Shown: positions 6,704-58,690, numbered from the stretch's first letter. The stretch: DNA of 64,000 nt from a bacterium (GCA_030018315.1 JASEGA010000001.1:138673-202672); one strand, 5' to 3'. Made by a program: numbers and translations. The notes: generated by a model not told the origin, from the letters alone.

Positions 6704-6711
6704 TATTTCTA

Positions 6712-9681: not shown

Positions 9682-10761
9682 CTACCGGCTCCTCTTTTTG
9701 AATATCTTTTATTAGCTTTATACTTACAAACCAATATAATTGGCCAAACGAGCTTTAATTTCATCAATATAGGAAGAATTCTGCTGTCACCCTTTGAGGG
9801 AGAATAAAATTTCAAATTATCTCTAAAATCTGAATCATTGACAATTTCATGAATAAGTTCATAAATCTTTTTTTTATTACTATTATTAATCTGTCCACAA
9901 GTACGAACTAACTGGATTATCGTGTAACTAACATATGTATGTCCAACTTCTTTTCTTACGTCGACACCAGAATTACAATTATTAAGAAAATAGCTTATAT
10001 TTGCGAGAGCTTGCTTATATCCAAACAATTTTTGGAGATTATTGCTTGCCAATATAGTTGCTGATGTATAATTATCGTGAATCAGGTGGTTATATATGAT
10101 TTCTTTTAAGAAAAATATTTCATTTGTATAATTTAAATAATCAAAATTAAAAGCTACATCCTCAAAAGTATGTAAATCAACATTAAAAAGAATATAATTA
10201 TTCTTGATAATTGACAACTTAAATAATCTTCCCCAAGAATATACAAATAGTGGGAATCTATTGAGTTTTTTTAAATATAACATCTAATATAATCTATAAT
10301 ATCCTGTTTTTAGCAGTTTACTGCTTGAAAAAACAGCACTATGTCCGGAGTCAGAAATACCATCTTTAATTTTTTTAAAATCCCCTATTATTATGTCTAC
10401 TTTGTGTTGGTTATAATTTTCAATTAAAATATTTAACGCGTTATTCTCGATGAAATCATCAGAATCAATAAAAAATGAAACTTCCATTTGAATTCTCTAT
10501 GCCTATATTTCTTGCGGTAGCTGGTCCGTTATTTTTTGTGTGTATTACTCTAATTCTGTTGTCACTAAGTGCATATGCATCACATATTTCGTCGCTATTG
10601 TCAGTTGAACCATCATTTATCAGTATTATTTCAATATTTTTATAACTTTGATTAATGATACTTTCGATGCACCGGCGAAAATATTTCTCGCTATTATATA
10701 CAGGAACTATAACGCTTACTAAATCTGGAATAAATTCTCGAGTATTTCTAACTTCTCTCAT
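9678..10761 (-). pseudogene. GT2 glycosyltransferase, frameshift plus TAG
   Basis: Three consecutive pieces make one GT2 enzyme of the EpsJ/CpsI type. The N-terminus has VSVIVPVYNSEKYFRR, LINDGSTDNS and GPATARNIGIEN (10465-10761). The middle has FFIDSDDFIEN (10284-10487). The C-terminus has YSWGRLFKLSIIKNN and EDVAFNF (9678-10283). One T appears to be missing from a T run near 10490, and an in-frame TAG at 10284-10286 separates the last two parts. The complete protein would be about 355 residues, normal for the family. The last piece ends in an ATGA overlap with the next gene, showing the operon was once translationally coupled. Confidence 0.85.
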
Positions 10762-35772: not shown

Positions 35773-36000
35773 CTAACTTGACGATATTTTACCTTCCATT
35801 CTTTCTAATATTTTGCTATGTTCCAATACCATTTGGGCAATCTCTTTAACCATTTGGGCAATCTCTTTAACCATTTGGGCAATCTCTTTTTGACCAGTCA
35901 ATATTTGCATCTGCATCTTACCATTACTTCTCCATATATAGGCAAGGATTATCCCTAAGAAGGCTACGCCTACCCCCATTAACCCTATTGCTATCCCCAT
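35773..36000 (-). CDS. Small membrane-anchored coiled-coil protein
   Basis: 75 residues: one membrane helix (IGLMGVGVAFLGIILAYIW) followed by a heptad-like stretch in which KEIAQMV occurs three times, encoded by three 21-nt tandem units at about 35823-35886. A paralog lies at 48141-48425 with the same anchor and the same QMVLEHSKILER-like ending. Function unknown; oligomerisation by coiled coil is likely. The repeat number probably varies by slippage in steps that keep the frame. Confidence 0.6.
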   Translation of the reverse strand: MGIAIGLMGVGVAFLGIILAYIWRSNGKMQMQILTGQKEIAQMVKEIAQMVKEIAQMVLEHSKILERMEGKISSS

Positions 36001-36107
36001 ACTACCTCCATTACAAACTCAATCACACTCCTATTCTTAACAAACACCAACTTTTTGCTTCTATCTTTTCTATCGTCTGTTTTCTGTATAATCTATAGTT
36101 TCATTTC

Positions 36108-37324: not shown

Positions 37325-38557
37325 TCATCGCTGGATTTTAGCAATGGAGTGAAAAACAGCCAGACTCTGATTAAGACGACATTTAAGATGAAATTCGAGT
37401 CTATTTCTTTGAGAAGGATACCGTAAAGCCAGGACTGCTGAAGGCGGAAAGAAGCTCTGCCAGACGAATCTTATTTTCTGTAAATTACCTTGACACATAG
37501 CTAAATGTAGGAAATAAGAAAGCCCAGTAAAATTGCCCCTTCCTGTCATTCTGAGCCCTTCGCTCTCTGTCATTCTGAACGAAGTGAAGAATCCCCTTCT
37601 GCTCAGGGTAAACTCCGCGAAGAATCTCCTCTCCCAATAGCTAAGCTTTTTTGGTCTTAACTCATCCAGCACATCGCCTGGAATGTTATCCAGTCCTATA
37701 AGTTTTGAAGTTAGATATAAAGAATAATAAAGTGGACGGTCAAGATTAAACCGGCGTGCTTCATTAATTAGAAGCTCCCAATTCAACTCTTTTTCATATG
37801 TCTTGATAGTTTTAGCAATATCATAAAGAAAAATCAATTTGTTAAATGAATGGGCTGGCTTTCCTGCATGCTCAGAGAGATGAATTAGTAAATGGTGGGG
37901 AGCAAGGCTTAGAGTACCAACTCCATAAACTTTGACACTAATAGCTTCATTCCAAATCTTTTCCATATCAATCTTGGATGCATACATAAAAGCAGGAAGA
38001 GTAGAGTTTACTAAATGCCAGTGAAAGTGGACTGAAACAGTGTCTTTATGATATTCTATACTATTAAAACAATCAACAGTAGAACGTTGGAGACAACTTC
38101 TGTAATCCTCGTTAGTTGAGTAGCCAAAAGCTCTCATCTTTTCATCTATTTGTGGTAACTTTTCTTTCTTCACAAGCAGGTCAACATCAGACATCGGTCT
38201 TAGGGCTAAATTTTTATACACAAGCTCAGCTAATGCTATACCCTTTAAAAGGATAACTTTGATGTTATTTTTATTGAGCATCTTTAAAACTTGCTCCAAT
38301 TCCTTATACATTAGAATATTGCGTGTAAGGTTACCATAATATTCTTGCTCTAATTCTTTAAGTACTCTCTTAGGAATGTAGCTCCCATTAGTTTCTTTCA
38401 GATAGTGATAAAATATGCAAGAAATTCCATTAGCCTTTGCCTTATCAAGAACAATAGCCCAGTCCAAATCATCATCCAAAAATCTATTTATTTCAGTTTT
38501 TTCACCCAAATCAGCCCGAGTTACTGCCACTATTAACTTATTTTCTTTTGTAACCAT
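37325..38557 (-). CDS. Nucleotidyltransferase-family protein (PF14907 type)
   Basis: 410 residues. The signature is VILLKGIALAELVYKNLALR followed by PMSDVDLLVKKEKL, the DxD centre of the putative nucleotidyltransferase family often found with PqqD-like and HPr-kinase-like genes. The middle has HHLLIHLSEHAGKPAH and YDIAKTIKTY, and the end has RFVWQSFFPPSAVLALRYP. Inside the C-terminal third, residues RGFFTSFRMTESEGLRMTG are encoded by a dispersed TGTCATTCTGA repeat (37544-37608) that keeps the frame. The reaction is unknown; it may add a nucleotide to a peptide or protein. It is the last gene of the proposed RiPP operon. Confidence 0.8.
   Translation of the reverse strand: MVTKENKLIVAVTRADLGEKTEINRFLDDDLDWAIVLDKAKANGISCIFYHYLKETNGSYIPKRVLKELEQEYYGNLTRNILMYKELEQVLKMLNKNNIKVILLKGIALAELVYKNLALRPMSDVDLLVKKEKLPQIDEKMRAFGYSTNEDYRSCLQRSTVDCFNSIEYHKDTVSVHFHWHLVNSTLPAFMYASKIDMEKIWNEAISVKVYGVGTLSLAPHHLLIHLSEHAGKPAHSFNKLIFLYDIAKTIKTYEKELNWELLINEARRFNLDRPLYYSLYLTSKLIGLDNIPGDVLDELRPKKLSYWERRFFAEFTLSRRGFFTSFRMTESEGLRMTGRGNFTGLSYFLHLAMCQGNLQKIRFVWQSFFPPSAVLALRYPSQRNRLEFHLKCRLNQSLAVFHSIAKIQR
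37544..37608. repeat. TGTCATTCTGA repeat inside a coding gene
   Basis: Two TGTCATTCTGA units and a CTCAGGGT end mark a member of the dispersed repeat family also seen at 43506-43571, 44908-44966 and 55040-55085. Here it lies within the nucleotidyltransferase gene without a stop or net frame change, adding about 20 residues. Confidence 0.75.
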
Positions 38558-38579
38558 TTAGCCACCTAAATTAAATTTT

Positions 38580-38618
38580 TCGTAATAGTTTAGTTTTTCT
38601 ATCCCGATTTATCGGGAC
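38580..38618. repeat. Shared 20-bp motif plus CCCGATTTATCGGG hairpin
   Basis: On the minus strand TAGAAAAACTAAACTATTAC lies about 25 nt before the start of the nucleotidyltransferase gene. The same motif occurs at 39371-39389 upstream of the S26-like gene and (with one change) at 51537-51557 upstream of the Wza-like gene. Beside it CCCGATTTATCGGG forms a 6-bp hairpin also present at 56007-56020 as CCCGATAAATCGGG. The rest of 38620-38800 is a dispersed AATCTGTG/TCTGCG repeat. Confidence 0.6.
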
Positions 38619-38799
38619 TCTAAAATATTAGTACACAGATAAAAAAGTTAAAAAAATCTTGTGTAAATCTCGTGCTAATCTGTGGTTACTTTTTTCATTT
38701 CTTAGCTTCTCTTTCAATCCCTGTTAATTTTATTTAATCAGTGTAAATCTGTATGCTATTTTTATACTTAATCTGTGCTAATCTGCGTATATCTGCGGT

Positions 38800-39339
38800 T
38801 TATTTTATATCTCTGTATTCTCTGTAGTTTATACATATTTTTACCTTATGCCAAACTCTACGCAAAAATAAAGGAAATTGAAATACCGCCTCTTGTCCTA
38901 AAGCTAAATAATATGATAGATAAGCAATTAAATAGCCAAGAATGCAGTTAAACTTAGTCTCAAGGTTAATTGACTTACCATTCCTCTCTATTGCTATTAC
39001 TTTGCCATAGACATCCTCTGCATAAACTGGTGGGTCACCATACTGACTTGCATCACCTTTGGTGAGCAGATTTTCTTTTCCATTACGGTCTACTCTTTTC
39101 CTAATTACACGGTGTACAGTAAAATCACCTTTTAAGTCTCTATTATAGACGACAATATCTCCAACCTTTGTATCCTCAAATTTTATTGGCTTAACAGTAA
39201 CAATATCACTTCTCCTTATAAAAGGATGCATACATCTCCCCTTGATATTCATCCGGACTGGCAGTCCCTTACTCAATTGCTCAACAAATATTTCCCTAAT
39301 TTTACTAAGCCTGCCAGAACTTAAATCCAGACTATCCAT
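38800..39339 (-). CDS. S26/S24-like peptidase with Cys in place of Ser
   Basis: 179 residues. The signal-peptidase fold is clear: NIKGRCMHPFIRRSDIVTVK is the GxSMxP box with Cys36 where Ser is expected, then VGDIVVYNR, FTVHRVIRKR (His76, the dyad His of SipW/Sec11-type enzymes) and LLTKGDASQYGDPPV. A hydrophobic C-terminal segment (ILGYLIAYLSYYLALG) may anchor it. If active it would be a Cys/His peptidase and could cut the leader from a modified peptide; otherwise it is a pseudo-enzyme. It lies between the UPF0489-TPR and nucleotidyltransferase genes of the proposed RiPP operon. Confidence 0.75.
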   Translation of the reverse strand: MDSLDLSSGRLSKIREIFVEQLSKGLPVRMNIKGRCMHPFIRRSDIVTVKPIKFEDTKVGDIVVYNRDLKGDFTVHRVIRKRVDRNGKENLLTKGDASQYGDPPVYAEDVYGKVIAIERNGKSINLETKFNCILGYLIAYLSYYLALGQEAVFQFPLFLRRVWHKVKICINYREYRDIK

Positions 39340-39392
39340 CTTAATCGTTACCTTTTCTTTACTCGTTTTGTAATAGTTTAGTTTTTCTAAAA

Positions 39393-39435
39393 TGTCATTG
39401 CGAGCCCTGAACTCGTTTCACTCCTCGCAATGACA
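39393..39435. repeat. 43-bp palindromic repeat with perfect 12-bp ends
   Basis: TGTCATTGCGAG at 39393-39404 is exactly inverted as CTCGCAATGACA at 39424-39435. It lies upstream of the S26-like gene next to the shared TAGAAAAACTAAACTATTAC motif. It belongs to the same TGTCATT family as 37544, 43506 and 44908. Confidence 0.8.
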
Positions 39436-39526
39436 ACTCTTACCCTTTCTTTTAGAAATACTTACCTAGTTACCTCGCCTTTTGCTAATTCCATAAAATA
39501 CAGAACACAGGCACTTTAATCTATAA

Positions 39527-41107
39527 TTATCCTTTCCTCAAATGCAAAGTAAAATACAGAGTTTGCCTAAGTTGAAAGATGAGTATTTTCGGCAATAGAT
39601 TAATTACTCTTTTAAATGCTTCTATTACATTATAAAATGTCCCATTGTGTAGAGTGAGAGTTAAAAGTCTTACAACGACTGCGAGTCTATCGGACCAACC
39701 TGTCTGAATAGCCCGGTTATACTCCTGAATAGCAAGAGTTTCATCTTCTATCTTTGAGTAAATGAAGCCAAGCCAGTAATGGGCTACCGAGTTGAGCGAA
39801 TCTAACTCAACACATTTCTTAAACTCTTTTTTTGCTTCATCCCATTTACCTTGTCTTATATAAACATACCCAATACCATAATGAGCGCTAAAGTCATCTC
39901 CAGATAGTTTAATTGCCCTTTCATATTCAACTATTGCTTTATCCCACATTTTGTTTTTACTAAATATGCTTCCTAATCCACAATGAGCATTTGCATCCTC
40001 TGGGTCTAATTTTAGTATTTTATTATATTCATTTTTGGCTTGCCCCAATTTTCCATTCCGCTCATATAACCTTCCAAGATTGTTATATGCTGTTCTATAG
40101 GTAGGGTCAATCTTAATCGCTTTCTTATAAAAGAGTGAAGCCTTGTCAATTAACCCTTTTTCCAGATATAAGGAAGATAAGTTATAGCAACCTGAGGCAT
40201 CGTCAGGTTTTAACTTAAGTAAGTTTTCATACTCATAAATAGCATCGTCGATTCTTCCCTCCAACCTATGAATGTCTGCTTGTTTTCTATGATGCGTTAT
40301 CTTTCTAAAATCTCCTTCTAATTGTGTATTCTTAAGAATCTCCTTAAGTTCGTCTCCCAAATATTTATACCTGAGTGGTGTAAAACCGCCCTCTACAGAA
40401 TAAGCAATAGTCACAAGATTCGTCCTTATCTCTTTTCTTTTAAGATATTCTACTAATTCTTCTGGGAAGAACCATGGTCTCCTCTCTTTAATAAGGTCGT
40501 TATTGGACAAAATTGATTCTAATACAAAGAAGTCAGTGTCTATATCAAGAAGCACTTCTTCTTGAATTCTGGGTAAATCGGGTAATCTACAGGCAGTGAA
40601 TTTTTTGCCATAAATTCTGGTTGTAATGCAGTTATCCTTAATCTCTACGGGTTCTGACCCTTTAGGATTTTTTTTCATAAGACGCTTGATAATATTTTTA
40701 ATCATTTTATTTTCTCTTTTTGTAATTTTTTGCTTTGAGTCACCCGGAATAACCCAATAAACCTCTCTTACAATTCCATCTCTTAACGCTGGATAAAGAT
40801 AATTACCTATATTTACTAAGCTTTCTCTTTTCTTCCCAAACTGCTCCCATAAGATGCTCATTTCTAACATACGCTTAACTTCATTAACACTCTTTGCCTC
40901 TTCTAAAATCTGGTACGGGTCTTTTATATCTATCCATGCAAAATCTATATGGGCATCTATATGCAGTAATATCTTATCCCTTTTCCCCATTCTTTGCCAA
41001 GTAAAATAGGCTTCATTGTGGTCTTCCATCATGACGACATCCTTTATTGGCTCAACTCCTACTAATTTGCCTTGTGATTGACTAATTGGCATCTTTAATA
41101 TCTTCAA
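39527..41107 (-). CDS. UPF0489 domain protein with C-terminal TPR repeats
   Basis: 526 residues. Residues about 1-240 match UPF0489: VVMMEDHNEAYFTWQRMG, LLHIDAHIDFAW and LLDIDTDFFVLES, whose His/Asp clusters recall the arginase/deacetylase metal site. Residues about 265-500 hold five or more TPR units (ASGCYNLSSLYLEKGLIDKA, AYNNLGRLYERNGKLGQA and similar). The TPR part may hold partner proteins or the peptide substrate. The start lies 26 nt inside the upstream CxxC-CC gene, implying coupled translation. The enzymatic role is not known. Confidence 0.78.
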   Translation of the reverse strand: MKILKMPISQSQGKLVGVEPIKDVVMMEDHNEAYFTWQRMGKRDKILLHIDAHIDFAWIDIKDPYQILEEAKSVNEVKRMLEMSILWEQFGKKRESLVNIGNYLYPALRDGIVREVYWVIPGDSKQKITKRENKMIKNIIKRLMKKNPKGSEPVEIKDNCITTRIYGKKFTACRLPDLPRIQEEVLLDIDTDFFVLESILSNNDLIKERRPWFFPEELVEYLKRKEIRTNLVTIAYSVEGGFTPLRYKYLGDELKEILKNTQLEGDFRKITHHRKQADIHRLEGRIDDAIYEYENLLKLKPDDASGCYNLSSLYLEKGLIDKASLFYKKAIKIDPTYRTAYNNLGRLYERNGKLGQAKNEYNKILKLDPEDANAHCGLGSIFSKNKMWDKAIVEYERAIKLSGDDFSAHYGIGYVYIRQGKWDEAKKEFKKCVELDSLNSVAHYWLGFIYSKIEDETLAIQEYNRAIQTGWSDRLAVVVRLLTLTLHNGTFYNVIEAFKRVINLLPKILIFQLRQTLYFTLHLRKG

Positions 41108-42296
41108 GAAAACAGATATGCTCTCTTATCTTTTCTAAATCTCTAAGGAAAGTTATCCTTTCCTCAGTAGTTTCTAAATTTAGCTGTTTTATTATATGGA
41201 GAAGGGAAAGTAGCTTACTTCTGTTTTCGGAAATTTTTTGAACAAACGAACTCAACTGCTCGGTAGGCGGAGCCGGAACTTTTTTAGAAATTAAAGGAGT
41301 ATCCAAGAAATGAGATAAGAAGTAAAAGAGCGGATAAAATGTTGAGTATAAATTCATGACAGTAACTATCTCTATTTTTACTGGGTGTACCTTTTTATAA
41401 ACGAGTAGATAAATATATAGAGAAAGTAATCTTCTTGGTAAGCTGTTAAGTGATAGCTTATAATTAAAAGAAAAGTTATCAGTCTGTATATAAGGGGCAA
41501 TCCGCAGATAAGGGGTTAAAGCCACAAGTAGGCGGGTTACCTTATTATCTTCATAGGTGGTCAAGCCATCTAAATTCAAGAATTCAGCCCATATTTTTAG
41601 CATCTCCGTAAGACTTTTTCTCTCTCTGTGTAGCATAGACTCTGAGATGTGTCTCTTAAACTCCTTTGAGCCAAACTTACTAAAACTTTTGGTACAAGCA
41701 ATTTGGAAAGCAGAAAAATCAAGATAATTTTTGTCATCCATATACTTTTGAGATTGGTCACGAATAAAAGCTTCCAGGTGTATATATTCACTCCAAGTTT
41801 TATCCTCATCTTTATCAGTTTTTTTAAAGTAATTTTTCCTCAGCCATTCTTCAATCAAATTTTCTATCTTATCATATTGAAATTGAATCCCTCTTCTCCT
41901 CTTATTTGGATTTGCTATCTTTATATTTGAACATGAATTGAAGTCAAGGTGGATAATAATATGTTTATTATCAACAAAAGTAGGATACAAAGGGTCCTGT
42001 CGGCACATCATTGGCTTATTTTTCTCACCATATTTCTTCTGAATAAGACATAAGCCATCCTTATCAAGGAACCAACATCCGCCACGACCCCTTGAGTATA
42101 CGACTTTCCCATTTTCTTGAGATGAAATAAAATATCTCAAATATGGGTATCTTTTTAATAAAAAGTTGCTGTTTTCAGCATCCATTCCAATATTACCTGG
42201 TCGCCTACAACATTTTCCCCTATTATTACACTTTGTACAATCGTAAGAGAAGATATTATTAATAAATGGAGAGTAAATTTTCATGTCTTTAATCAT
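41082..42296 (-). CDS. YkgJ-like CxxC-CC cluster protein
   Basis: 404 residues. The N-terminus has YDCTKCNNRGKCCRRPGNIG and later KPMMCRQDPLYP, the CxxC...CC...C pattern of the YkgJ/FliB-like zinc or iron-binding family. The rest is largely helical with no recognised motif. In FliB-type proteins this domain belongs to a radical-type lysine methylase; here it may be an extra redox or methylation component of the peptide pathway. It begins at the base after the stop of the radical SAM gene (TAA then ATG), so the two are coupled. Confidence 0.72.
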   Translation of the reverse strand: MIKDMKIYSPFINNIFSYDCTKCNNRGKCCRRPGNIGMDAENSNFLLKRYPYLRYFISSQENGKVVYSRGRGGCWFLDKDGLCLIQKKYGEKNKPMMCRQDPLYPTFVDNKHIIIHLDFNSCSNIKIANPNKRRRGIQFQYDKIENLIEEWLRKNYFKKTDKDEDKTWSEYIHLEAFIRDQSQKYMDDKNYLDFSAFQIACTKSFSKFGSKEFKRHISESMLHRERKSLTEMLKIWAEFLNLDGLTTYEDNKVTRLLVALTPYLRIAPYIQTDNFSFNYKLSLNSLPRRLLSLYIYLLVYKKVHPVKIEIVTVMNLYSTFYPLFYFLSHFLDTPLISKKVPAPPTEQLSSFVQKISENRSKLLSLLHIIKQLNLETTEERITFLRDLEKIREHICFLEDIKDAN

Positions 42297-43361
42297 TTAA
42301 CCATACATAGCTATCTTCTTTTTGGCTCTGAGCTTAGCTAACTCCTTAAAATATGGGACACAGGCACTTAAATCGCCCATCTCTGCCCACCCCTGCACAG
42401 GACACCAGCAACAATGACTCCAATATTTACAATCATTACACTTGTAATTCTTATTAGGCTTTGCTGATTTAACCCAATTTGTAAGTTCGTTCCATCCCTC
42501 TGCAAGACTACTCTTTCGTAGGTCATAACGAGGAAAATGGAAGTCTAAACAGAGGTTTAGCTCTCCATAGGGATTTATAGCCAAAGAGTTCCTGCCAGCG
42601 CTGCAATAAAAAAACTGGTCTTTACTAATGAAGGGCTTGCTCTCTTTTTGAACTCTCTCTTCTTCGGTATCCGCAGACGGGTAATTCTCCATCTCAAGGT
42701 CAACCCCTTCTTTTGGTGATAGACGATAAAGAAGCGGCCCGGGTGAACCATCAAAGTTGGGCATGATTATGTAGCTGTATCTAAAACGAATTCCCTGTGC
42801 TCCGGCGAGTTCTTTTACCCTGTCAAATTCCTTTAGGTTTGGGGTCATGACCACCATCTTCAAAATAATGGGGATATTCCTATTTTGAAGCAGTTTAATT
42901 CCTTGCAAACAGCGGTGGAAAGAACCAGGAACCCTGGTAATCTTTTCAAAGATTTCAGCGGTTACACCGTAAAATGATATTTCTACTTTGTTAATACCTA
43001 TATCATGAAGATAATCCGCTACCTTGGGAGTAATGAGAGTTCCATTTGTGAGAATGGTGGTGTAAAAGCCTCTCTTCTTGGCATGTGCAAGGATTTCCAA
43101 GCAATCTTGCCTGGCAAAAAGCTCACCTCCGGTAAGAGTCAGCATAATGCATCCTGCCTCAACTAATTGGTCTAATATAGAGCAGACCTCTTCTGTGGTG
43201 AGCTCCTCCTTTCCTGGCTCAGGCACTATGTTGCAGTGGCAACACTTGAGATTACAATTATAGGTAAGCTCAAATTGTGCCTCAAATGGAATATTCTTCT
43301 CGTAGGTCCGGTTGTAAAAGTCTTTCCAGAATGTCTCTTCTCCGATGCTCTTAATATCCAT
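42297..43361 (-). CDS. Radical SAM/SPASM peptide maturase
   Basis: Start at the ATG at 43361 (a TTG nine codons earlier overlaps a GACAAC-TCTT-GTTGTC palindrome). About 354 residues. The radical SAM core has LTYNCNLKCCHCNIVP (CxxxCxxC) and MLTLTGGELFARQD. The C-terminal SPASM region has FYCSAGRNSLAINPYGE followed by CNDCKYWSHCCWC and a last Cys in LSACVPYF, enough ligands for auxiliary Fe-S clusters. SPASM enzymes build thioether, C-C or C-O bonds in peptides. It follows the candidate precursor gene and precedes the YkgJ-like gene without a gap. Confidence 0.87.
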   Translation of the reverse strand: MDIKSIGEETFWKDFYNRTYEKNIPFEAQFELTYNCNLKCCHCNIVPEPGKEELTTEEVCSILDQLVEAGCIMLTLTGGELFARQDCLEILAHAKKRGFYTTILTNGTLITPKVADYLHDIGINKVEISFYGVTAEIFEKITRVPGSFHRCLQGIKLLQNRNIPIILKMVVMTPNLKEFDRVKELAGAQGIRFRYSYIIMPNFDGSPGPLLYRLSPKEGVDLEMENYPSADTEEERVQKESKPFISKDQFFYCSAGRNSLAINPYGELNLCLDFHFPRYDLRKSSLAEGWNELTNWVKSAKPNKNYKCNDCKYWSHCCWCPVQGWAEMGDLSACVPYFKELAKLRAKKKIAMYG

Positions 43362-43505
43362 ATAAAATCCGACAACTCTTGTTGTCAAGCATAAAAAAAC
43401 CGAATCTGCTTAAAAAGACCACGTACAGAAGGCATAACTGACTCTGGGAGTGTCATGCTGAACCTTGGCCTGTCGCCAGGACAGGCTCATTTCATTACTT
43501 CACAC

Positions 43506-43571
43506 TGTCATGCTGAACTCGTTTCAACATCTCTAAAAGTGTTGGGATTCCGAAACAAGTTCGGAATGACA
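43506..43571. repeat. 66-bp inverted-repeat element near precursor gene
   Basis: The left end TGTCATGCTGAACTCGTTTC and the right end GAAACAAGTTCGGAATGACA are inverted with about 17 of 20 bases matching. A related half unit lies at 43451-43470. It is located between the precursor gene and the radical SAM gene and could form a hairpin in the operon transcript that lowers downstream expression. Confidence 0.7.
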
Positions 43572-43650
43572 GGAACGGCAAAAGCAATCGTCCTGACCCT
43601 TTTTCAGCAGACTCACACCGGTGTCACATAACCAAAAGAACTGAACTGTG

Positions 43651-43827
43651 TTAGGAGCTAGCCCCTGAGTCTCCTGCCCTATTGGACTGCCTACATCCTG
43701 TTGCTGTGCAGCCTTGCGTGCCAGAAGTCCTTGTGCCTGAGCTCGTCGAGCATGTTCCCAGCACTGCTTGCTCATGGTTTAACTTCACCATAACCACAGC
43801 TGGCTCTGTATATTTTTTCTTCTCCAT
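43651..43827 (-). CDS. Candidate RiPP precursor peptide
   Basis: 58 residues from the ATG at 43827. The leader-like half is EKKKYTEPAVVMVKLNHEQA followed by VLGTC; the pattern Y-x2-P-x-V-x2-V-x-L-x2-EQAVL-x2-C resembles short leaders of PqqD-dependent peptides. The core-like half has Cys26, Cys40 and Cys45 among many Ser, Thr and Gly and ends GDSGASS. The ribosome site AAGGAGGTGA six bases ahead is the strongest in the window. It lies between an HPr-kinase-like gene and a radical SAM gene. Three Cys and three radical SAM enzymes would suit thioether or similar crosslinks, and Ser/Thr could be phosphorylated. A chance reading frame is the alternative, but start and context argue against it. 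Confidence 0.7.
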   Translation of the reverse strand: MEKKKYTEPAVVMVKLNHEQAVLGTCSTSSGTRTSGTQGCTATGCRQSNRAGDSGASS

Positions 43828-43833
43828 CTTTTT

Positions 43834-43842
43834 CACCTCCTT
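43834..43842 (-). promoter_or_regulatory. Strong Shine-Dalgarno of the precursor gene
   Basis: AAGGAGGTG is fully complementary to the 3' end of 16S rRNA and is well spaced from the ATG at 43827. Most other genes of the operon have weak or no such site, which fits high production of a small peptide relative to its enzymes. Confidence 0.75.
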
Positions 43843-43870
43843 TTTATTTCACAAAAAACTTTATCATCAA

Positions 43871-43941
43871 CAGGGATTTTAAGAGATGGAAAGAGATTTT
43901 TCTTTTTCATTTTTATCTCTTAAATTCTCTTTCAATCCCTG
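43871..43941. repeat. 27-bp imperfect inverted repeat before precursor
   Basis: CAGGGATTTTAAGAGATGGA at 43871 and AATTCTCTTTCAATCCCTG ending at 43941 can pair at both outer (8 bp) and inner (about 7 bp) parts around an A/T-rich loop. It lies in the leader of the precursor transcript. The half CTCTTTCAATCCCTGT also occurs at 38711-38727. Confidence 0.5.
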
Positions 43942-43943
43942 TC

Positions 43944-44879
43944 TCATTTCCTCTTTCTTATAAACTCAACCACAGTTTTATCCTTTACAAACCCTAATTT
44001 TTTACAGTTTATTTTACTAATTAAGTCTTCGCAAACCTCTAATATAAGGTCCATCCTTTCTCTATCCCAGAATGGTAGGAATAGTAAAGGTAGTAAATCA
44101 CGCATAGTTCCGCGCCCCAATATTTTATTGACTGGTGCGTGTTCAATAAAGAATATCCTTTTGAGTGGTACACTCTCTGATAATGCAGCCGCAGCCATAC
44201 CAGGCCACGGAGTCCCATAGAGCAAGAATTTGTCCTTATATTTTTTTATAATGATGTGCTCATCGCTAAGGATATTCACTCTTTCTTCATTCTTATAGAA
44301 TTCAGCCATAGTACTCTTCCCGGTGCCTGTCCCACCGAGTAGGGCGATTCCCCTCCCTCTATCATTGATTCCTAACCCATGGACCATTATTCCCTGCTTT
44401 TTAGCTAATAGATTTACTATAATAAGCTCCACAAGAGGCTGCATAAGCAAAGGAAGTAACCAAATTGCAGCCGAAGGCTTCAGCTTTCGTAGCGCTCTAC
44501 GAACCCTAAAGGGTTCGGCTACAGAACTTGGCAGATGTAATCTCTCTAACTCAGGCTCAATATACACATCCCCGGAGCTAAAATCAGGCTCCATAAGACA
44601 GACTTTGCTCTTCTTATTAGTCATAGTATCGTAGATTTCAATAATGTATCTTGACTCATCACAGTAAAGTTTCCAGTATCCCTCTCTTTCTCCATCAAAT
44701 AGCATCTTATCTTTTGAGTATTCTGGGAGATGGTCACAGTGGATTCTAAGATTGACATCGGCTTTGTCACTGGAGATAAAGTCCTGATAATACGGATGGG
44801 GCCAATCAATTATCTGTGCCCTCTGCCACTTAATTGATATACCAACTCCACCAATCTTAAATTTAAGTTCCTCGCTCAT
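43944..44879 (-). CDS. HPr kinase-like protein
   Basis: About 311 residues from the ATG at 44879; a GTG at 44903 lies inside a repeat element. The P-loop is IALLGGTGTGKSTMAEFYKN, with MVHGLGINDRG before it and ILSDEHIIIKKY after it, as in HprK/P and PEP-carboxykinase-like domains. Related proteins sit in many PqqD and lasso peptide loci, where one class phosphorylates a Ser of the peptide. The first 140 residues are poorly conserved. Residues VAEPFRVRRALRKLK are encoded by a TGTAGCCGA palindrome (44487-44525) inserted in frame. It lies directly upstream of the candidate precursor. Confidence 0.82.
   Translation of the reverse strand: MSEELKFKIGGVGISIKWQRAQIIDWPHPYYQDFISSDKADVNLRIHCDHLPEYSKDKMLFDGEREGYWKLYCDESRYIIEIYDTMTNKKSKVCLMEPDFSSGDVYIEPELERLHLPSSVAEPFRVRRALRKLKPSAAIWLLPLLMQPLVELIIVNLLAKKQGIMVHGLGINDRGRGIALLGGTGTGKSTMAEFYKNEERVNILSDEHIIIKKYKDKFLLYGTPWPGMAAAALSESVPLKRIFFIEHAPVNKILGRGTMRDLLPLLFLPFWDRERMDLILEVCEDLISKINCKKLGFVKDKTVVEFIRKRK
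44487..44525. repeat. Palindromic repeat inside the kinase gene
   Basis: Two adjacent hairpins, CGTAG-CGCT-CTACG (44488-44501) and GAACCCTAAAGGGTTC (44501-44516), with flanks matching the repeat at 31889-31920. It is read through by the HPr-kinase-like gene without a stop. Confidence 0.75.
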
Positions 44880-44895
44880 CTTGGTTCTGTAATTT

Positions 44896-44990
44896 GAAAC
44901 CACAAGATGTCACCCTGAGCAAAACGAAGGGTCTATGAGATTCTTCGGCTTCGCCTCAGAATGACATTTCTGATGAAATCTTGTGGTTTC
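44896..44990. repeat. 95-bp nested inverted-repeat element
   Basis: Outer arms GAAACCACAAGAT (44896-44908) and ATCTTGTGGTTTC (44978-44990) are a perfect 13-bp inverted repeat. Nested inside is a 59-bp unit from TGTCACCCTGAG to CTCAGAATGACA (44908-44966). ATTT borders both sides. It separates two genes of the RiPP operon and supplies the alternative GTG start of the kinase gene. Confidence 0.8.
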
Positions 44991-45004
44991 ATTTTAAATT
45001 CATC

Positions 45005-46069
45005 CTATTCTAGAAGATGACTATTCTGCGCTAATTTATGAGCCAGTTGGCAAAAGTAATCTATAGGTTTCTCATAATCACTATTTTCCAATTTTGCTAA
45101 AGCTGGACATTGAGAACAGAGATAAAATATCTTGCAATCCTTACACTTAGAATTAGTCTGATATTTTAATGACCGAATCTCAGGATAAAGGGTATAAAAT
45201 CCATCCCTAAATGCACCTTTTTTTAAGTCAAAACTCGGTTTTCGCATAAAGGTGCAAAAAATTAGCTCCCCATAAGGACTAATATGGAAAGAATACGTTC
45301 CGGCTGCACAGCGGAATAAATTATCTGAAGGAATAAAATTTTCTTTTTTAAGATAGCTTTCCTGACATTCTCCATTATCTTGAAAAAATCTATCAAGACT
45401 GGCTATCTCTTCCAGCGAGAGCCTAAAAGAGCAAGGTTCTGGTGAGCTGTCTAATTTGGGATAAAGCATTGCATTTAACTTGAATTCTATCCCTAAACTT
45501 TCAATAAAGTCTCTTATTTTATCCAGCTCATGGTAGTTAAGACAGGTTGCCTTGGTCTTGATTTTAAGAGGCAGTTTCTTATCTAAAATCATTTTAATTG
45601 CTTCCATTGCCTTTCTGAACGAACCATGTACCCGGCTTATTTTTTCATAGGTATCTTGGGTTACACCATTTAAGGTAAGCTCAATAGAAAAAGGTGGTTC
45701 TTGGGCAAGATACTCTACAATTTCCGGCGTCATCAACGTGCCATTGGTTAATATTGAGATGAGAAACCCTTTTCTCTTGGCAAAGCGGTAAATCTCCAAG
45801 AAATCGCTTCTCATAAGTGGCTCTCCTCCAGTAAAAGAGAGCCATAGGCAACCTTGTTGGTGTATTTGGTCTAAAATATTGGTTATCTCTTGAAGACTAA
45901 GTTCTTCTTTGGTTGTATCCTCTGTAACATAGCAATGAACGCATTTTAAGTTACAGCGGAAAGTAAGTTCCATCTGACCTTTAATTGGTATGGACTTACT
46001 TCCCATTTTTTGGTGGAAGTCTAAGCTAAAATCGCGATACTCAACTTCGGTTATTTTAAGGTCGTCCAT
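45005..46069 (-). CDS. Radical SAM/SPASM peptide maturase
   Basis: 354 residues. Cluster motif LTFRCNLKCVHCYV, SAM motif LSFTGGEPLMRSDF, substrate-side TNGTLMTPEIVEYL and the SPASM ligands FRCAAGTYSFHISPYGELIF, CKDCKIFYLCSQCP and YFCQLAH. It is a close paralog of the enzyme at 46071-47147 and more distant from 42297-43361. The start is one base after the stop of the upstream paralog (TAAGATG), so they are translated together. Likely modifies the Cys/Ser/Thr-rich peptide encoded at 43651. Confidence 0.9.
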   Translation of the reverse strand: MDDLKITEVEYRDFSLDFHQKMGSKSIPIKGQMELTFRCNLKCVHCYVTEDTTKEELSLQEITNILDQIHQQGCLWLSFTGGEPLMRSDFLEIYRFAKRKGFLISILTNGTLMTPEIVEYLAQEPPFSIELTLNGVTQDTYEKISRVHGSFRKAMEAIKMILDKKLPLKIKTKATCLNYHELDKIRDFIESLGIEFKLNAMLYPKLDSSPEPCSFRLSLEEIASLDRFFQDNGECQESYLKKENFIPSDNLFRCAAGTYSFHISPYGELIFCTFMRKPSFDLKKGAFRDGFYTLYPEIRSLKYQTNSKCKDCKIFYLCSQCPALAKLENSDYEKPIDYFCQLAHKLAQNSHLLE

Positions 46070-46070
46070 C

Positions 46071-47147
46071 TTAATCTACTAATATTGCTTTCATCTGGTT
46101 TCGTCTATGAGCCAATTCACAGAAGTAGTTTACCGGTATTTGGGGATCGCCATTTTCCAATTTAGCTCTAGCTGGACACTGAGCACATAGGTACCAAATC
46201 TGGCAATCTCTACACTTAGAATTAGTCTGATATTTTGCAGAACGAATTCTGGGAAATAGCTGATAAAATCCTTCTTTAAAGGGACCCTGACGCAAATTGA
46301 AACTGGGACTACGCAGTAGATGGCAAAGTTGCAATTCTCCATAAGGGCTGATATTAAATAAACTGACCCCACCTCCGCAACGAAACAGATTATCCGGTTC
46401 ATAAAGCTCGTGGTCAGCCTGTAAACACTCCTTCCATTCCTGGCGCATATTATTATCGCTATATTCAATATCCATTATCTCTTTAGAAGATAGACGAAAC
46501 TGGCATGGTTCCTTGGAGCCGTCTAACTTGGGGATAAGGATGGAATCATACCTATACTTTACCTTTCCCAATCCGTCTACCCATTCTTTTATCTTCAATA
46601 TTTCTCCCCGATTAAGAGTCATACCATTAGATTTCAAGGTCAATGGAAGCTCTTTTTCCATGATAAGATTAATCCCTTGCATACAACTTTGAAATGAACC
46701 AGGGACCTGAGTTATAGACTCGTAAGTCTCTGCAGTTATGCCATTAAGAGTAATATCAATCATAAATGGTGGATATTCTGTTAAATAATCAGCAATCTCA
46801 GGTGTGATAAGAGTGCCGTTAGTAAATATGGTGATAAGAAAACCTTTATGCTTTGCATATGTATAGATATCTAAAAAGTCGCTTCGTATCAGGGGTTCAC
46901 CGCCAGTAAGACAAAGCCATAGACAGCCCTCATTATGTAATTGGTCAAGAATGTTAGTAATCTCTTGAAAAGTGAGCTCCTCTTTGGTCTTGTCTTCTAC
47001 AACATAACAATGGAGACACTTAAGGTTACAACGAAAGGTAAGTTCCCATTGCCCCTGAATGGGTACCCCTTTTACTTGCATCTTATAGTAAAAATCTTCG
47101 CTGAAATAATCCTCATACTCTATTTTATGTATCCTGGAGCATTCCAT
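46071..47147 (-). CDS. Radical SAM/SPASM peptide maturase
   Basis: 358 residues. LTFRCNLKCLHCYVVED (CxxxCxxC), LCLTGGEPLIRSDFLDI, then FRCGGGVSLFNISPYGELQL, CRDCQIWYLCAQCPARAK and YFCELAHRR for auxiliary clusters. Two close paralogs in tandem (with 45005-46069) suggest successive modification of different residues or a heterodimer. It starts 25 nt after the PqqD-like gene; fused or adjacent PqqD-radical SAM pairs are a hallmark of RiPP pathways. Confidence 0.9.
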   Translation of the reverse strand: MECSRIHKIEYEDYFSEDFYYKMQVKGVPIQGQWELTFRCNLKCLHCYVVEDKTKEELTFQEITNILDQLHNEGCLWLCLTGGEPLIRSDFLDIYTYAKHKGFLITIFTNGTLITPEIADYLTEYPPFMIDITLNGITAETYESITQVPGSFQSCMQGINLIMEKELPLTLKSNGMTLNRGEILKIKEWVDGLGKVKYRYDSILIPKLDGSKEPCQFRLSSKEIMDIEYSDNNMRQEWKECLQADHELYEPDNLFRCGGGVSLFNISPYGELQLCHLLRSPSFNLRQGPFKEGFYQLFPRIRSAKYQTNSKCRDCQIWYLCAQCPARAKLENGDPQIPVNYFCELAHRRNQMKAILVD

Positions 47148-47172
47148 AATAAAAACAACAGATGAGAAGGTA

Positions 47173-47481
47173 CTACTTCCTCTCGCCTACTTCTCTTATT
47201 ATACCACCTATTTTTTCTAATTCTTTAAAAAATTCTATAAGGTCATTTTCAGCCTTCTCATGACTTACATCAAACTCATCACATATTATCTCTTTAATAT
47301 CACGCACCTTTCTTTTACCATCAATAAGTTCCCAAATACGAGCTGAAACATCATCTCGCAAAAGATAGATAGCGTTGACATCAGCCAGTCTTCGCCTAAT
47401 TGGAACTAAAATAACTTCGTCATCAATTACCCTTGTAGGAACATTAGGGTCTTTCTCAAAACATTTTTCTAAGTAATCCAT
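47173..47481 (-). CDS. PqqD-like leader-peptide-binding protein
   Basis: 102 residues with the PqqD/RRE fold pattern: DEVILVPIRRRLADVNAIYL, then ARIWELIDGKRKVRDIKEII and EFDVSHEKAENDLIEFFKEL. Such proteins bind the leader of a RiPP precursor and present it to radical SAM enzymes. It opens the proposed ten-gene operon, whose order then is two radical SAM enzymes, kinase, precursor, third radical SAM enzyme, CxxC-CC protein, UPF0489-TPR, peptidase-like and nucleotidyltransferase. A related orphan is at 56149-56454. Confidence 0.88.
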   Translation of the reverse strand: MDYLEKCFEKDPNVPTRVIDDEVILVPIRRRLADVNAIYLLRDDVSARIWELIDGKRKVRDIKEIICDEFDVSHEKAENDLIEFFKELEKIGGIIREVGERK

Positions 47482-47508: not shown

Positions 47509-47787
47509 CTATTGCGTGATTCTATCATATTCTAAACTTCTAGGGAATACTCTCAAAATAATTACATTACTCTGTTCAATGCCATAAATAATCCGGTAAT
47601 CACCACTTCTATATTTGTAAATCTTGCCCTTTAAATCCTTAGGCAAATATTTCATCTTATCTCAAATAGAGGGTTTATCTCTAATCTGTTTTATAGCTCC
47701 TTGAAACTGTTTCTTAAGCTTAGGATTCCTTCTTGTCAAACTTTTCATCTCTTTAGCTGCTCGTGGGGATATCAGGAGTTTAGTCAC
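47509..47787 (-). pseudogene. RelE/ParE-type toxin with internal TGA
   Basis: From GTG 47787 to TAG 47509 a 92-residue RelE-family protein is encoded: LLISPRAAKEMKSLTRRNPK, GAIKQIRDKPS, LKGKIYKYRSGDYRIIYGIE and a late RVFPRSLEYDR. A TGA at 47662-47664 interrupts it where the family often has Gly. The GTG overlaps the antitoxin end (GTGACTAA). The interrupted toxin is probably inactive. Confidence 0.8.
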
Positions 47788-47992
47788 CAAAGACCTCACT
47801 AATGGATAAGCCTTTTCCAGACTTCACTGCTTTTAATCCCTCCCTCAGCGAATTAAGAAATTCAATGTCCTTAGCCAAAAGAGTATCCTCATAATCTATT
47901 TTATTCATCAACTTGATTAATCTTACCCAATCCTCATATCGAATAACGACCTCCTCTTTTTCACCTGATTCTGATAAAACTACTTTAGGCAT
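47780..47992 (-). CDS. Antitoxin of the RelE-type pair
   Basis: 70 residues: VVLSESGEKEEVVIRYEDWV, then KDIEFLNSLREGLKAVKSGK and a GLSISEVFGD ending common to RelB/Phd-like antitoxins. An N-terminal strand followed by helices suits toxin binding. It overlaps the toxin gene by 8 nt. With the toxin broken, the antitoxin may persist for protection or simply be relic. Confidence 0.7.
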   Translation of the reverse strand: MPKVVLSESGEKEEVVIRYEDWVRLIKLMNKIDYEDTLLAKDIEFLNSLREGLKAVKSGKGLSISEVFGD

Positions 47993-48140: not shown

Positions 48141-48425
48141 CTAATTGGACGATTTTCTACTTTCTATTCTTTCCAATATTTTACCATGCTCCAATACCAT
48201 TTGGGTAGTCTCTTTGACTATTTGGGAAACTTCTTTAACTATCTGTGCAATTCCAATTTGTCCTTGCTCCATATGCTCTAAAGAAGGCATCATTTGCATC
48301 TGGAGTTTACCATTACTTCTCCATATATAGGCAAGAATTACACCTAAGAGAGTTATACCTAACCCCATCAATCCTGTTGCTATACTCGTACTACCTCCAT
48401 CTCTTATTTTCTGCAGTATTGCCAC
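48141..48425 (-). CDS. Small membrane-anchored coiled-coil protein (paralog)
   Basis: 94 residues with a membrane helix (GLMGLGITLLGVILAYIW) and a heptad-like region (QIVKEVSQIVKETTQMVLEH), closely related to the protein at 35773-36000 but with diverged rather than identical repeat units. An N-terminal extension is present. The gene lies 19 nt downstream of the large TPR lipoprotein's neighbour region and is co-directed. Function unknown. Confidence 0.55.
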   Translation of the reverse strand: MAILQKIRDGGSTSIATGLMGLGITLLGVILAYIWRSNGKLQMQMMPSLEHMEQGQIGIAQIVKEVSQIVKETTQMVLEHGKILERIESRKSSN

Positions 48426-56148: not shown

Positions 56149-56454
56149 TTAACGACTACCTGAAATCAGAGTTATTCCACCCAGTTTCTCAATATCTTTA
56201 ATAAATGTAATTAAATCATTTTCTGCTGTTTTAGGACTGACTTCAAACTTATTAGTTAGATTCTCACTAATCTCTTTGAGACTTTTTTTACCATCTAATA
56301 ATTCCCAGATGAAAGCTGATGTCTCATTTAAGACAACGATAGAATGCGCTTCCACAGCCTCTGCCTTTATAGGAACAAGGATAACTTCATCCACGACTTT
56401 ACGATAGACAAAGTTAGGATTTCTTTTATATATACGGGATAAAAAATTGTGCAC
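56149..56454 (-). CDS. Orphan PqqD-like protein
   Basis: 101 residues related to the protein at 47173-47481: DEVILVPIKAEAVEAHSIVV, AFIWELLDGKKSLKEISENL and TAENDLITFIKDIEKLGGI. It starts at GTG 56454. No intact radical SAM gene is next to it, but a truncated one lies at 61998-62120 beyond the secreted proteins and the IS110 element. It may have lost its partner or could serve the main locus. About 90 bp upstream, in another frame, DQMRLGLPIFELGFKPDSE is possibly a remnant of a further gene. Confidence 0.8.
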   Translation of the reverse strand: MHNFLSRIYKRNPNFVYRKVVDEVILVPIKAEAVEAHSIVVLNETSAFIWELLDGKKSLKEISENLTNKFEVSPKTAENDLITFIKDIEKLGGITLISGSR

Positions 56455-56560
56455 AGTACCTCATATCTCAAATTTCTCACAAAATCTACTATCTCACTGT
56501 CCGGTTTAAACCCTAATTCAAAAATCGGTAAACCCAACCTCATTTGGTCAAAGAGTTTTT

Positions 56561-58690
56561 TCAAATGAAAACAAATTTTTTAGAAATTGCCCCACTTTCT
56601 GTAGTTAATCTTATAAAATATACTCCAGATGTCAAGTCTATTTTTGTATTTATCTCATGCCGACCACTATCAGACACACCATCAAATAATGACTTGATAT
56701 TCCTACCTGCCACATCATACAAAGATAACTGAATTCTACCTCTTTTAGACATTGAATACCTTATAGTTATCTCTTTTCCGCTGATTATATTTCCTTTTAC
56801 AAAAAGCAAGTTATCACCTACTGTAGAGAAATCACTACGAACTTCTTCTATACTTACACCCGGATGATACTTTATCGTTACAATATCCATACCCGTAAAT
56901 GCATCACTGTACGAAGTGCCAGTGACATATATATTGCCAGCATCATCAACCACTACAGCTGATGCGCCATCAGCATAATAAGAGTTGTTATATCTTGACT
57001 CCCATAGTAATTCACCAGCCGAAGAATATTTAAGTGTTGCAAAATCACACCCTGTCCGATTGCCATAACTACCACCCGTCAGAAATACATCACCAGCTTC
57101 ATCAATCGCTATGTCTGTCACAAAATCGTAAGATTTAATTGGACCATTATACTCTTTATGCCAGAGAAGTTCACCATCCGAAGAATACTTAAGAACTAAA
57201 TAGTCAGCATTATCATTAGACCAAGAAGAAGTGCCACCAATATAAATATTGCCAAAAGCGTCACATTTGATTGCAGTTGGGATATCATTACCATTACCAA
57301 TAGAATTGTAATACTGCACCCAAAGAAGTTCACCAGAAGGCGAATACTTTATTGTTAGGAAGTCATAACCACCAGTAGCATTATAACTTGCACCTGTTAT
57401 GTATACATTATTATAAGAATCTTTACAAATTGCACAGGGGTAATCATCACCATTCCCTACACCATTAAACCACTTTACCCAGAGAGTATCACCACTTGAT
57501 GAGTACTTAATTGTGAGGAAATCATAATTGTTTGTAACTCTGCGAGCCTTGCCAGTTATGTAAATATCATCATTGGACGCCACAACAATTCCTGCAGGTG
57601 AAGCTGTACCTCCTAACGGATATCTCCGTGTCCAAATGACATTACCTTGAGAGGAATATTTAATAGTCGCCCAATCATATTCTCCATACACTAAACCACT
57701 ATATCCAGTGACTATAATATTACCATTATTATCAACAGCTATTGCACTTGAGAAATCACGGTTATAGTCGTAGTATTGAGTCCATAACACACTGCCTTGC
57801 TGAGAATACTTAATTAATTTATAATCATAATATGTCTGACTAGAACTTGTCCATCTTGTGCCTAAGAAATAGCAATTACCTTCTTTATCAACCACAAATC
57901 CTGCAGGTGCTGAGCCATCAGTCCTTTTCCAAATAGTGTCGCCATCTAATGAATATTTAATAATCATTGAGGCATCCCCATTCTGCCAGAAGGTCTCACC
58001 CGGCTGATATACAGGCCAGCCGGTTGGATAACTGTAAGCTCCACAAGTCAGTACATATAGGCAGAAAGGAGTAAGGAATAAGTCAACCGCTTTGTCAGAG
58101 CAGATGCTGCCATCCCACTGTGAGTATCTTCTCACCCAGACAGTGTCGGGTAAGTTTTGACTCGGAACAGTATAATGGAGGTACCCATCACGCCGATGAT
58201 GAGAAATGTGCGACCCAGACAAGCTAATCATTTTATTTGTAAACAGATTAAGTGCAGTAGCTACAGTATCTTTTACTTCAAAAGTTATATATGCTAAGAT
58301 GCCACTACCAGTTTGATAGTGTTCGCCTAGGATGGCCTCCATGCACATTAGAGATGGGAAAGGACTGTCTTGGAAACTCCAAGAAAAAAACTTTGTGCTA
58401 ATGCCACCTTGTGATAGGAAAGGTCCTCTTTCAATGTTGATTAATTTTAAATTAGAGCTATCAGTTCCGTTCCACCTCAGCCCTACTTGATAAGTATGAA
58501 GCATATTAATATTAGCAACTCTAATCTCAACCTGAAAAGTATCGCCAATCGCTAAATTTTTAACTGTATCGGGATAGACATAAAGCGAACAATTGTCCGC
58601 AGGATCCCGTGAATAAGGGTTCTCTCCTGAAAAAGATAAGTGTGAAAACACAACACCCACTGTGATAATATCCACTATCCTTCTACACAT
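56561..58690 (-). CDS. Secreted SBBP-repeat protein with cohesin-like N-terminus
   Basis: 709 residues. The ATG follows GGAGGTGTGAT. A short N-terminal hydrophobic segment is likely a signal peptide. Residues about 30-150 look like a cohesin-type beta domain (YPDTVKNLAIGDTFQVEIRV). Then come about nine SBBP/beta-propeller repeats of about 50 residues, each with TIKYSSSGD-LWVxxYN and VDNNGNIIVTGYS type motifs. The last 80 residues (LSLYDVAGRNIKSLFDGVSD and SGVYFIRLTTESG) form the type-IX-like or FlgD-like C-terminal sorting domain. Cell-surface or secreted; ligand unknown. Confidence 0.87.
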   Translation of the reverse strand: MCRRIVDIITVGVVFSHLSFSGENPYSRDPADNCSLYVYPDTVKNLAIGDTFQVEIRVANINMLHTYQVGLRWNGTDSSNLKLINIERGPFLSQGGISTKFFSWSFQDSPFPSLMCMEAILGEHYQTGSGILAYITFEVKDTVATALNLFTNKMISLSGSHISHHRRDGYLHYTVPSQNLPDTVWVRRYSQWDGSICSDKAVDLFLTPFCLYVLTCGAYSYPTGWPVYQPGETFWQNGDASMIIKYSLDGDTIWKRTDGSAPAGFVVDKEGNCYFLGTRWTSSSQTYYDYKLIKYSQQGSVLWTQYYDYNRDFSSAIAVDNNGNIIVTGYSGLVYGEYDWATIKYSSQGNVIWTRRYPLGGTASPAGIVVASNDDIYITGKARRVTNNYDFLTIKYSSSGDTLWVKWFNGVGNGDDYPCAICKDSYNNVYITGASYNATGGYDFLTIKYSPSGELLWVQYYNSIGNGNDIPTAIKCDAFGNIYIGGTSSWSNDNADYLVLKYSSDGELLWHKEYNGPIKSYDFVTDIAIDEAGDVFLTGGSYGNRTGCDFATLKYSSAGELLWESRYNNSYYADGASAVVVDDAGNIYVTGTSYSDAFTGMDIVTIKYHPGVSIEEVRSDFSTVGDNLLFVKGNIISGKEITIRYSMSKRGRIQLSLYDVAGRNIKSLFDGVSDSGRHEINTKIDLTSGVYFIRLTTESGAISKKFVFI

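Follow-up and report, generated by a model that had tools for sequence, protein, structure and literature searches.

A candidate radical SAM peptide cluster with a lasso-type phospho-tailoring module in candidate division WOR-3

What might a bacterium make with three radical S-adenosylmethionine (SAM) enzymes, an HPr-kinase-like protein and a nucleotidyltransferase gathered around a 58-residue peptide? The question is raised by ten genes at positions 37,325 to 47,481 of a 64,000-nucleotide stretch of DNA (GCA_030018315.1 JASEGA010000001.1:138673-202672; hereafter the window, meaning the whole stretch) from a candidate division WOR-3 genome of 1.95 Mb in 74 contigs. Judged from sequence, the locus is a real cluster for a small, heavily modified three-Cys peptide, with an established precursor family, leader motif, constant enzyme partners, and a kinase of known fold and active site. 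It is best read as directing leader-guided radical SAM modification of the core and phosphorylation, perhaps phospho-glycosylation, of a C-terminal Ser, without lasso enzymes. It seems to us probable that the product of the whole pathway proposed below is a ribosomal peptide whose core holds three Cys and whose C-terminal Ser is tagged.

The precursor family and its recurrence

The 58-residue peptide is preceded by a strong ribosome-binding site (AGGAGGTGAAAAAG-ATG) and comprises a leader, MEKKKYTEPAVVMVKLNHEQAVLGT, and a core, CSTSSGTRTSGTQGCTATGCRQSNRAGDSGASS. Searched against 147 genomes of the WOR-3 phylum, it gave weak matches, two of which (L022/L045 and L024/L055) adjoin PqqD and radical SAM genes. 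A leader profile (hidden Markov model, HMM) iterated from three starting sequences returned 28 matches, exclusively in cassette loci and with none in the less related loci L102-L136. The leader consensus is K-x-Y-x-x-P-x-[VI]-x-x-V-x-L-x-x-E-x-AVL, followed by the first Cys. No convincing match to the precursors was found among the curated families of NCBIfam or Pfam.

A scan of 84,980 species with a radical SAM alignment returned 80 loci, and in the best of these one set recurs: PqqD, radical SAM enzyme, small peptide precursor, HprK-like kinase, S26 peptidase and NTP_transf_5 protein, an order shared by about nine phyla. The leader and the Cys spacing reappear beside the same enzymes in Aminicenantes, Cloacimonadota, Deltaproteobacteria, Nitrospinae, Omnitrophota, Clostridia, Chloroflexota, Acidobacteria and WOR-3. 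The original prediction had proposed the Cys-containing peptide as the precursor and had suggested seeking the same gene set in other genomes; the set does recur with a small Cys peptide alongside, and the recurrent leader and Cys spacing bear the proposal out. It had also named conserved enzymes beside an unconserved peptide as the pattern that would speak against it; the peptide proved to be conserved beside the enzymes. In one Omnitrophota locus (L063), the PqqD domain and the precursor form a single protein, twice (6239-6781 and 9834-10367), giving direct evidence that this recognition domain works with this leader. A conserved precursor next to a PqqD-like protein and modifying enzymes is the hallmark of a ribosomally synthesized and post-translationally modified peptide (RiPP) with a discrete recognition element, and the 58-residue peptide is, as far as its conservation can tell, a genuine RiPP precursor.

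The core of the window peptide has the commonest Cys spacing, C-x13-C-x4-C, which is exact in 8 of the 25 tabulated cores (window included) and also spans the last three Cys of the L055 precursor. Cores of single-enzyme cassettes follow C-K-x(10-17)-C-x(3-9)-C-x(5-7)-[ST], and the sequence between the three spaced Cys and the terminal Ser/Thr is highly variable among precursors. Of the 27 closed precursors that the profile retrieved, 25 end in Ser or Thr, against a background in those loci of 10% for long frames and 15% for all frames of at least 50 residues. By eye, all but two have Ala, Gly, Ser, Thr or Asn before the first Cys, and a cut by an S26-type peptidase at this nearly always small residue would fit. 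These features also bear on whether the peptide might be processed to a small redox cofactor, as with PqqA and mycofactocin, instead of a secreted modified peptide. The radical SAM proteins do score with mycofactocin and PqqE maturase models among others, below cut-off, and PqqD partners are common to both. Cofactor precursors, however, keep a fixed short core, whereas the present family retains its three spaced Cys and its constant terminal Ser/Thr around highly variable sequence, and the precursors are accompanied by a kinase and a nucleotidyltransferase as in lasso peptides. We therefore consider a cofactor very improbable.

The enzymes of the cluster

The ten reading frames that the original prediction described are all present, all on the minus strand, with PqqD first and NTP_transf_5 last. 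Sound family matches support the PqqD, radical SAM, UPF0489-TPR, signal-peptidase-like and NTP_transf_5 assignments:

47173..47481, minus: PqqD-like RiPP recognition element, 102 aa (Pfam PqqD 3.4e-12, over cut-off)
46071..47147, minus: radical SAM enzyme 1 (rSAM1), 358 aa, with CNLKCLHC and a SPASM-like Cys pattern (Radical_SAM 6.1e-21)
45005..46069, minus: radical SAM enzyme 2 (rSAM2), 354 aa, a paralogue 56-57% identical to rSAM1
43944..44879, minus: HprK-like peptide kinase, 311 aa (conserved residues, AlphaFold2, Foldseek)
43651..43827, minus: RiPP precursor peptide, 58 aa (leader HMM 4.5e-12)
42297..43388, minus: radical SAM enzyme 3 (rSAM3), 363 aa, of a second subfamily (Radical_SAM 3.5e-21, SPASM 3.2e-04)
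41082..42296, minus: FliB/KgrB-like Fe-S protein (the CxxC protein), candidate N-methylase, 404 aa (sub-threshold FliB match)
39527..41107, minus: peptide arginase (UPF0489) domain fused to TPR repeats, 526 aa (UPF0489 over cut-off)
38800..39339, minus: S26-type peptidase, candidate leader peptidase (TIGR02228 over cut-off)
37325..38557, minus: NTP_transf_5 nucleotidyltransferase, candidate phospho-Ser glycosyl/nucleotidyl transferase (PF14907 6.8e-51)

The genes had been described as separated by short gaps or overlaps. An overlap of 26 nt does exist, between the arginase gene and the preceding FliB-like gene, but five gaps measure 125, 113, 268, 187 and 242 nt, and repeat-like sequence is interspersed in at least the first (125 nt) and the third (268 nt). 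Repeat-like sequence was seen at 43500-43570 (with two partial copies elsewhere in the genome), at 44905-44990 and at the end of the 37325-38557 frame, where a similar string at the protein level, FRMTESEGLRMT, lies within the C-terminal part of the nucleotidyltransferase.

The PqqD-like protein has as its best NCBIfam match the lasso PqqD model (9.3e-07, below cut-off). The three radical SAM enzymes match Radical_SAM at 1e-21 to 1e-25 in Pfam, and their C-terminal Cys patterns are SPASM-like, in rSAM1 C257, C275, C312-x2-C315-x5-C321-x2-C324 and C343. The description of all three as SPASM enzymes holds to that extent; the Pfam SPASM match is borderline for rSAM3 (21.4 versus 21.5) and absent below E 0.01 for rSAM1 and rSAM2. 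In a phylogenetic tree, rSAM1 and rSAM2 grouped together with enzymes of Omnitrophota and L055 (support 100/99), and rSAM3 fell in a different clade, with enzymes of L055 and L063/L066 (support 93/87). The cassettes divide into two sub-types. The window, L055 and L063/L066 make up one of them: their leaders contain 'EQAVL', Lys does not follow the first Cys, and each has several radical SAM enzymes, drawn from the two subfamilies. L063 and L066 belong to one Omnitrophota genome and have about 115 nt in common at their ends, so that a single locus with at least six radical SAM genes is probable there.

The HPr-kinase-like protein, as the original prediction had it, shows the HprK fold and the catalytic residues of lasso-peptide kinases. 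Its predicted structure (AlphaFold2; predicted local distance difference test, pLDDT, 88; predicted template modelling score, pTM, 0.87) retrieved HPr kinase/phosphorylase as the top hit in a Foldseek search of the PDB (E 8.7e-06, probability 1.00), with low TM-scores of about 0.4 of the target. H167, the P-loop at 182-190 (G182, K188 and T190) and D206 are invariant over 20 cassettes; residue 207 is Asp in 18 of them and Glu in the window and L046. Of the features that mark a lasso-type kinase (His, P-loop Lys, two Asp and the HprK fold), His, Lys and the first Asp are accordingly invariant and the second Asp is Glu in the window. The most likely start codon of the kinase is ATG 44879, since GTG 44903, upstream of it, falls in a repeat-like stretch. 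Lasso kinases carry the His-Lys-Asp-Asp residues, and the residue that most of them phosphorylate is the C-terminal Ser (PMC9266682, PMC10368454). The original prediction missed the C-terminal Ser/Thr of the precursors, whose recurrence makes it the likely target of the kinase.

PsmN, a named nucleotidyltransferase, attaches hexoses to the phosphate on a C-terminal Ser; we take it to be a member of PF14907, the family matched by the last gene of the cluster. Relatives of the window nucleotidyltransferase on plasmids were distant only, and among three such plasmids viewed, that of Crinalium has an HPr kinase gene about 6 kb from the relative and the other two have none; no relatives of the kinase were found in viral contigs.

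The S26-type peptidase scores 59.1 bits over a cut-off of 51.85 with the signal peptidase model TIGR02228. Its nucleophilic Ser is replaced by Cys in the window (GRCMHP) and in L046 (4647-5249, GxCMHP), and is kept in the other 16 of 18 S26 loci compared. The two loci with Cys-type peptidases are the same two whose kinases have Asp-Glu.

Beyond the recurrent set, the window holds two more radical SAM genes, the peptide arginase and the FliB/KgrB-like Fe-S protein. UPF0489 is a family of peptide arginases that convert Arg to Orn, a role overlooked in the original prediction. The window domain matches it at 1.2e-07 (32.6 over the Pfam cut-off of 27) and aligns with the OspR structure 8brp (2e-07); its motifs EDHNEA, DAHID and LDIDTDFF align with EEH(N/H)EAF, DXHXD and LDIDLDYF, so all six Mn ligands are kept. 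Family match and ligands together mark it as a peptide arginase.

The CxxC protein was correctly noted as present in the original prediction, which missed its likeness to FliB and KgrB. FliB is a [4Fe-4S] lysine methyltransferase with a Cx4Cx3CC motif and 8 conserved Cys. The window protein has eight Cys in its N-terminal third (20, 23, 29, 30, 74, 83, 98 and 122), with a Cx2Cx5CC cluster in place of Cx4Cx3CC. Its matches are sub-threshold (FliB 6e-4, CxxCxxCC 9e-4; FliB 1.2e-6 in the genome search, also below cut-off), and since FliB scores of 19-28 bits fall short of the cut-off of 85, it was not assigned to that family. The enteropeptin pathway offers a precedent: ornithine formed there by an arginase is methylated to N-methylornithine by the Fe-S methyltransferase KgrB. 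By analogy, the arginase and FliB-like pair could produce N-methylornithine from one of the three core Arg, and its presence suggests ornithine or N-methylornithine in the product. Core Arg was dropped as an arginase marker, since Arg also occurs in related cores whose loci lack an arginase.

The proposed pathway and its genomic setting

In the pathway we propose, the free PqqD protein would bind the YTEPAV leader and present the peptide to the radical SAM enzymes, which may put cross-links into the core, most likely thioethers from Cys. The HprK-like kinase would phosphorylate the C-terminal Ser58, and the NTP_transf_5 protein might then attach a sugar or nucleotide to the Ser58 phosphate, as PsmK/PsmN do in pseudomycoidin. 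The arginase would turn one or more core Arg into ornithine, to be N-methylated by the putative Fe-S methylase. The S26-type peptidase would cut ahead of the first Cys, after the mostly small residue.

Several observations weigh against this pathway. Two cassette peptides end otherwise than in Ser/Thr (L091 in Pro, L101 in Gly), as does the L046 candidate peptide, which lies outside the profile matches and ends in Pro. The second Asp of the lasso-kinase motif is Glu (207) in the window kinase, and BsfK, a lasso kinase, targets Ser3 and not the C-terminus. The type of bond made by the radical SAM enzymes is not readable from sequence. The FliB match is confined to the Cys domain besides being below cut-off, and a single-sequence structure prediction of the CxxC protein was uninformative (pLDDT 36). 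No arginase or FliB-like counterpart was found in the 146 other WOR-3 genomes, and neither gene was seen in related cassettes; the pair looks like a local addition, and its role at the window rests on position and chemistry.

The setting raises another possibility, that the kinase and nucleotidyltransferase act on a non-peptide such as an exopolysaccharide and that the operon belongs to a surface-polymer neighbourhood. Wzz, Wzy_C and Poly_export/SLBB genes surround the window cassette, and L062 has DegT, Glycos_transf_4 and WbqC neighbours. In other cassettes, however, the neighbours are unrelated (C25 peptidases in L070/L074, an amidohydrolase in L061) while the kinase stays with the precursor, and the excess of Ser/Thr at precursor C-termini agrees with a peptide substrate. 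A non-peptide substrate is thus distinctly unlikely, and phosphorylation of the peptide remains the preferred reading. The C25 peptidases, of gingipain type, lie near the cassette in two Chloroflexota genomes (L070 13180-16218, L074 3705-6782).

Copies of a small gene, 80-82% identical and 12.4 kb apart, flank the window cassette (35773-36011 and 48141-48400), and a toxin-antitoxin-like pair occupies 47547-47992 on the minus strand, its second frame RelE-like by eye and broken by an in-frame stop. Further along the window lies one more feature:

56149..56564, minus: apparent remnant of a second cassette, a PqqD gene (2.5e-16) and a kinase-C-terminus-like fragment

The fragment before this PqqD gene, LPIFELGFKPDSEIVDFVRNL, resembles HprK-like kinase C-termini by eye, and the two are a probable remnant of another cassette. 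More radical SAM loci occur on contigs 35, 9, 29, 38 and 43 of the same genome (L015, L016, L017, L019 and L018, respectively), next to small YxxPx[VILM] peptides of other types; several of these loci also have PqqD and HprK-like matches. L015 carries its peptide gene as a tandem duplicate. In L017, a 125-residue protein (6778-7155, minus strand) with a DSGSTYS motif, by eye like that of retroviral-type aspartic proteases, has a radical SAM gene on one side and a candidate precursor on the other.

Comparison with known systems

The combination of a PqqD-like protein, an HprK-like protein and two radical SAM/SPASM proteins is also that of the SynChlorMet cassette (TIGR04248-TIGR04251 in NCBIfam), and the window locus might be a diverged copy of it and nothing more. 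The L057 kinase has ScmC as its best match (9.5e-08), the PqqD protein matches ScmD (3.2e-06), and the radical SAM proteins match ScmE/ScmF. These scores are far under the curated cut-offs (31.7 of 125, 27.3 of 100 and 68-88 of 400), on which ground membership was ruled out. The accessory genes differ as well: we know of no S26, NTP_transf_5, arginase or FliB-like genes in SynChlorMet. This explanation is rather unlikely. A search of the open-access literature for the word SynChlorMet found nothing. An exosortase-linked system was ruled out, as the genome has no exosortase.

Sactipeptides and ranthipeptides are marked by a thioether from Cys to another residue; the window family conserves three Cys, which may take part in such bonds. 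The arginase domain has the metal-ligand motifs of, and homology (8brp 2e-07) to, the UPF0489 peptide arginases OspR, FlmR/OhkR and BipC, but is fused to TPR repeats and accompanies a precursor type outside those listed in PMC12703449. The enteropeptin pathway (KgrB, KgrD) likewise combines a radical SAM enzyme acting on a Cys/Arg peptide with an arginase and an Fe-S methyltransferase; KgrD comes from another arginase family (pfam00491), and the likeness is one of pathway components. To our knowledge, the enteropeptin pathway has no kinase module.

The closest resemblance is to phosphorylated lasso peptides (paeninodin PadeK, pseudomycoidin PsmK/PsmN and the bsf cluster), which have a discrete PqqD-like protein, a YxxPx[LVI] leader (YxxPxL being the lasso leader motif), an HprK-like kinase with His-Lys-Asp-Asp, a nucleotidyltransferase and a C-terminal Ser. 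Unlike them, the window cluster has radical SAM enzymes, an S26 peptidase and a three-Cys core. The lasso B2 leader protease (Transglut_core3) had no match in the window genome at E 0.001, and a lasso peptide was ruled out by the absence of this family; an Asn-synthetase-like lasso cyclase was absent among the cassette proteins, the rest of the genome not having been searched for it. The original prediction of an undescribed pathway to a multiply modified peptide is partly supported, and strongly so as regards a RiPP pathway with a conserved Cys-containing precursor. Wholly undescribed it is not: phosphorylated lasso peptides have the same module of PqqD, kinase and nucleotidyltransferase, and the PqqD, HprK-like and radical SAM/SPASM combination resembles SynChlorMet. 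The exact cassette was not found in the open-access literature, and subscription journals may hold a prior description.

We tentatively suggest, at a little short of even confidence, that these cassettes constitute an undescribed cross-phylum class of radical SAM peptides with a phosphorylated, possibly glycosylated C-terminal Ser/Thr, which would borrow the tailoring module of lasso peptides but not their fold; in WOR-3, the peptide would also acquire N-methylornithine through a TPR-fused arginase and a FliB-like methylase. Radical SAM core modification and C-terminal phospho-tailoring, each known on its own, are here joined in one conserved cassette. It is spread over many uncultured phyla, and its precursors have a signature that is easily mined. 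It offers a testable substrate for HprK-like peptide kinases and for the NTP_transf_5 family, which is poorly understood, and points to a candidate route to N-methylornithine.

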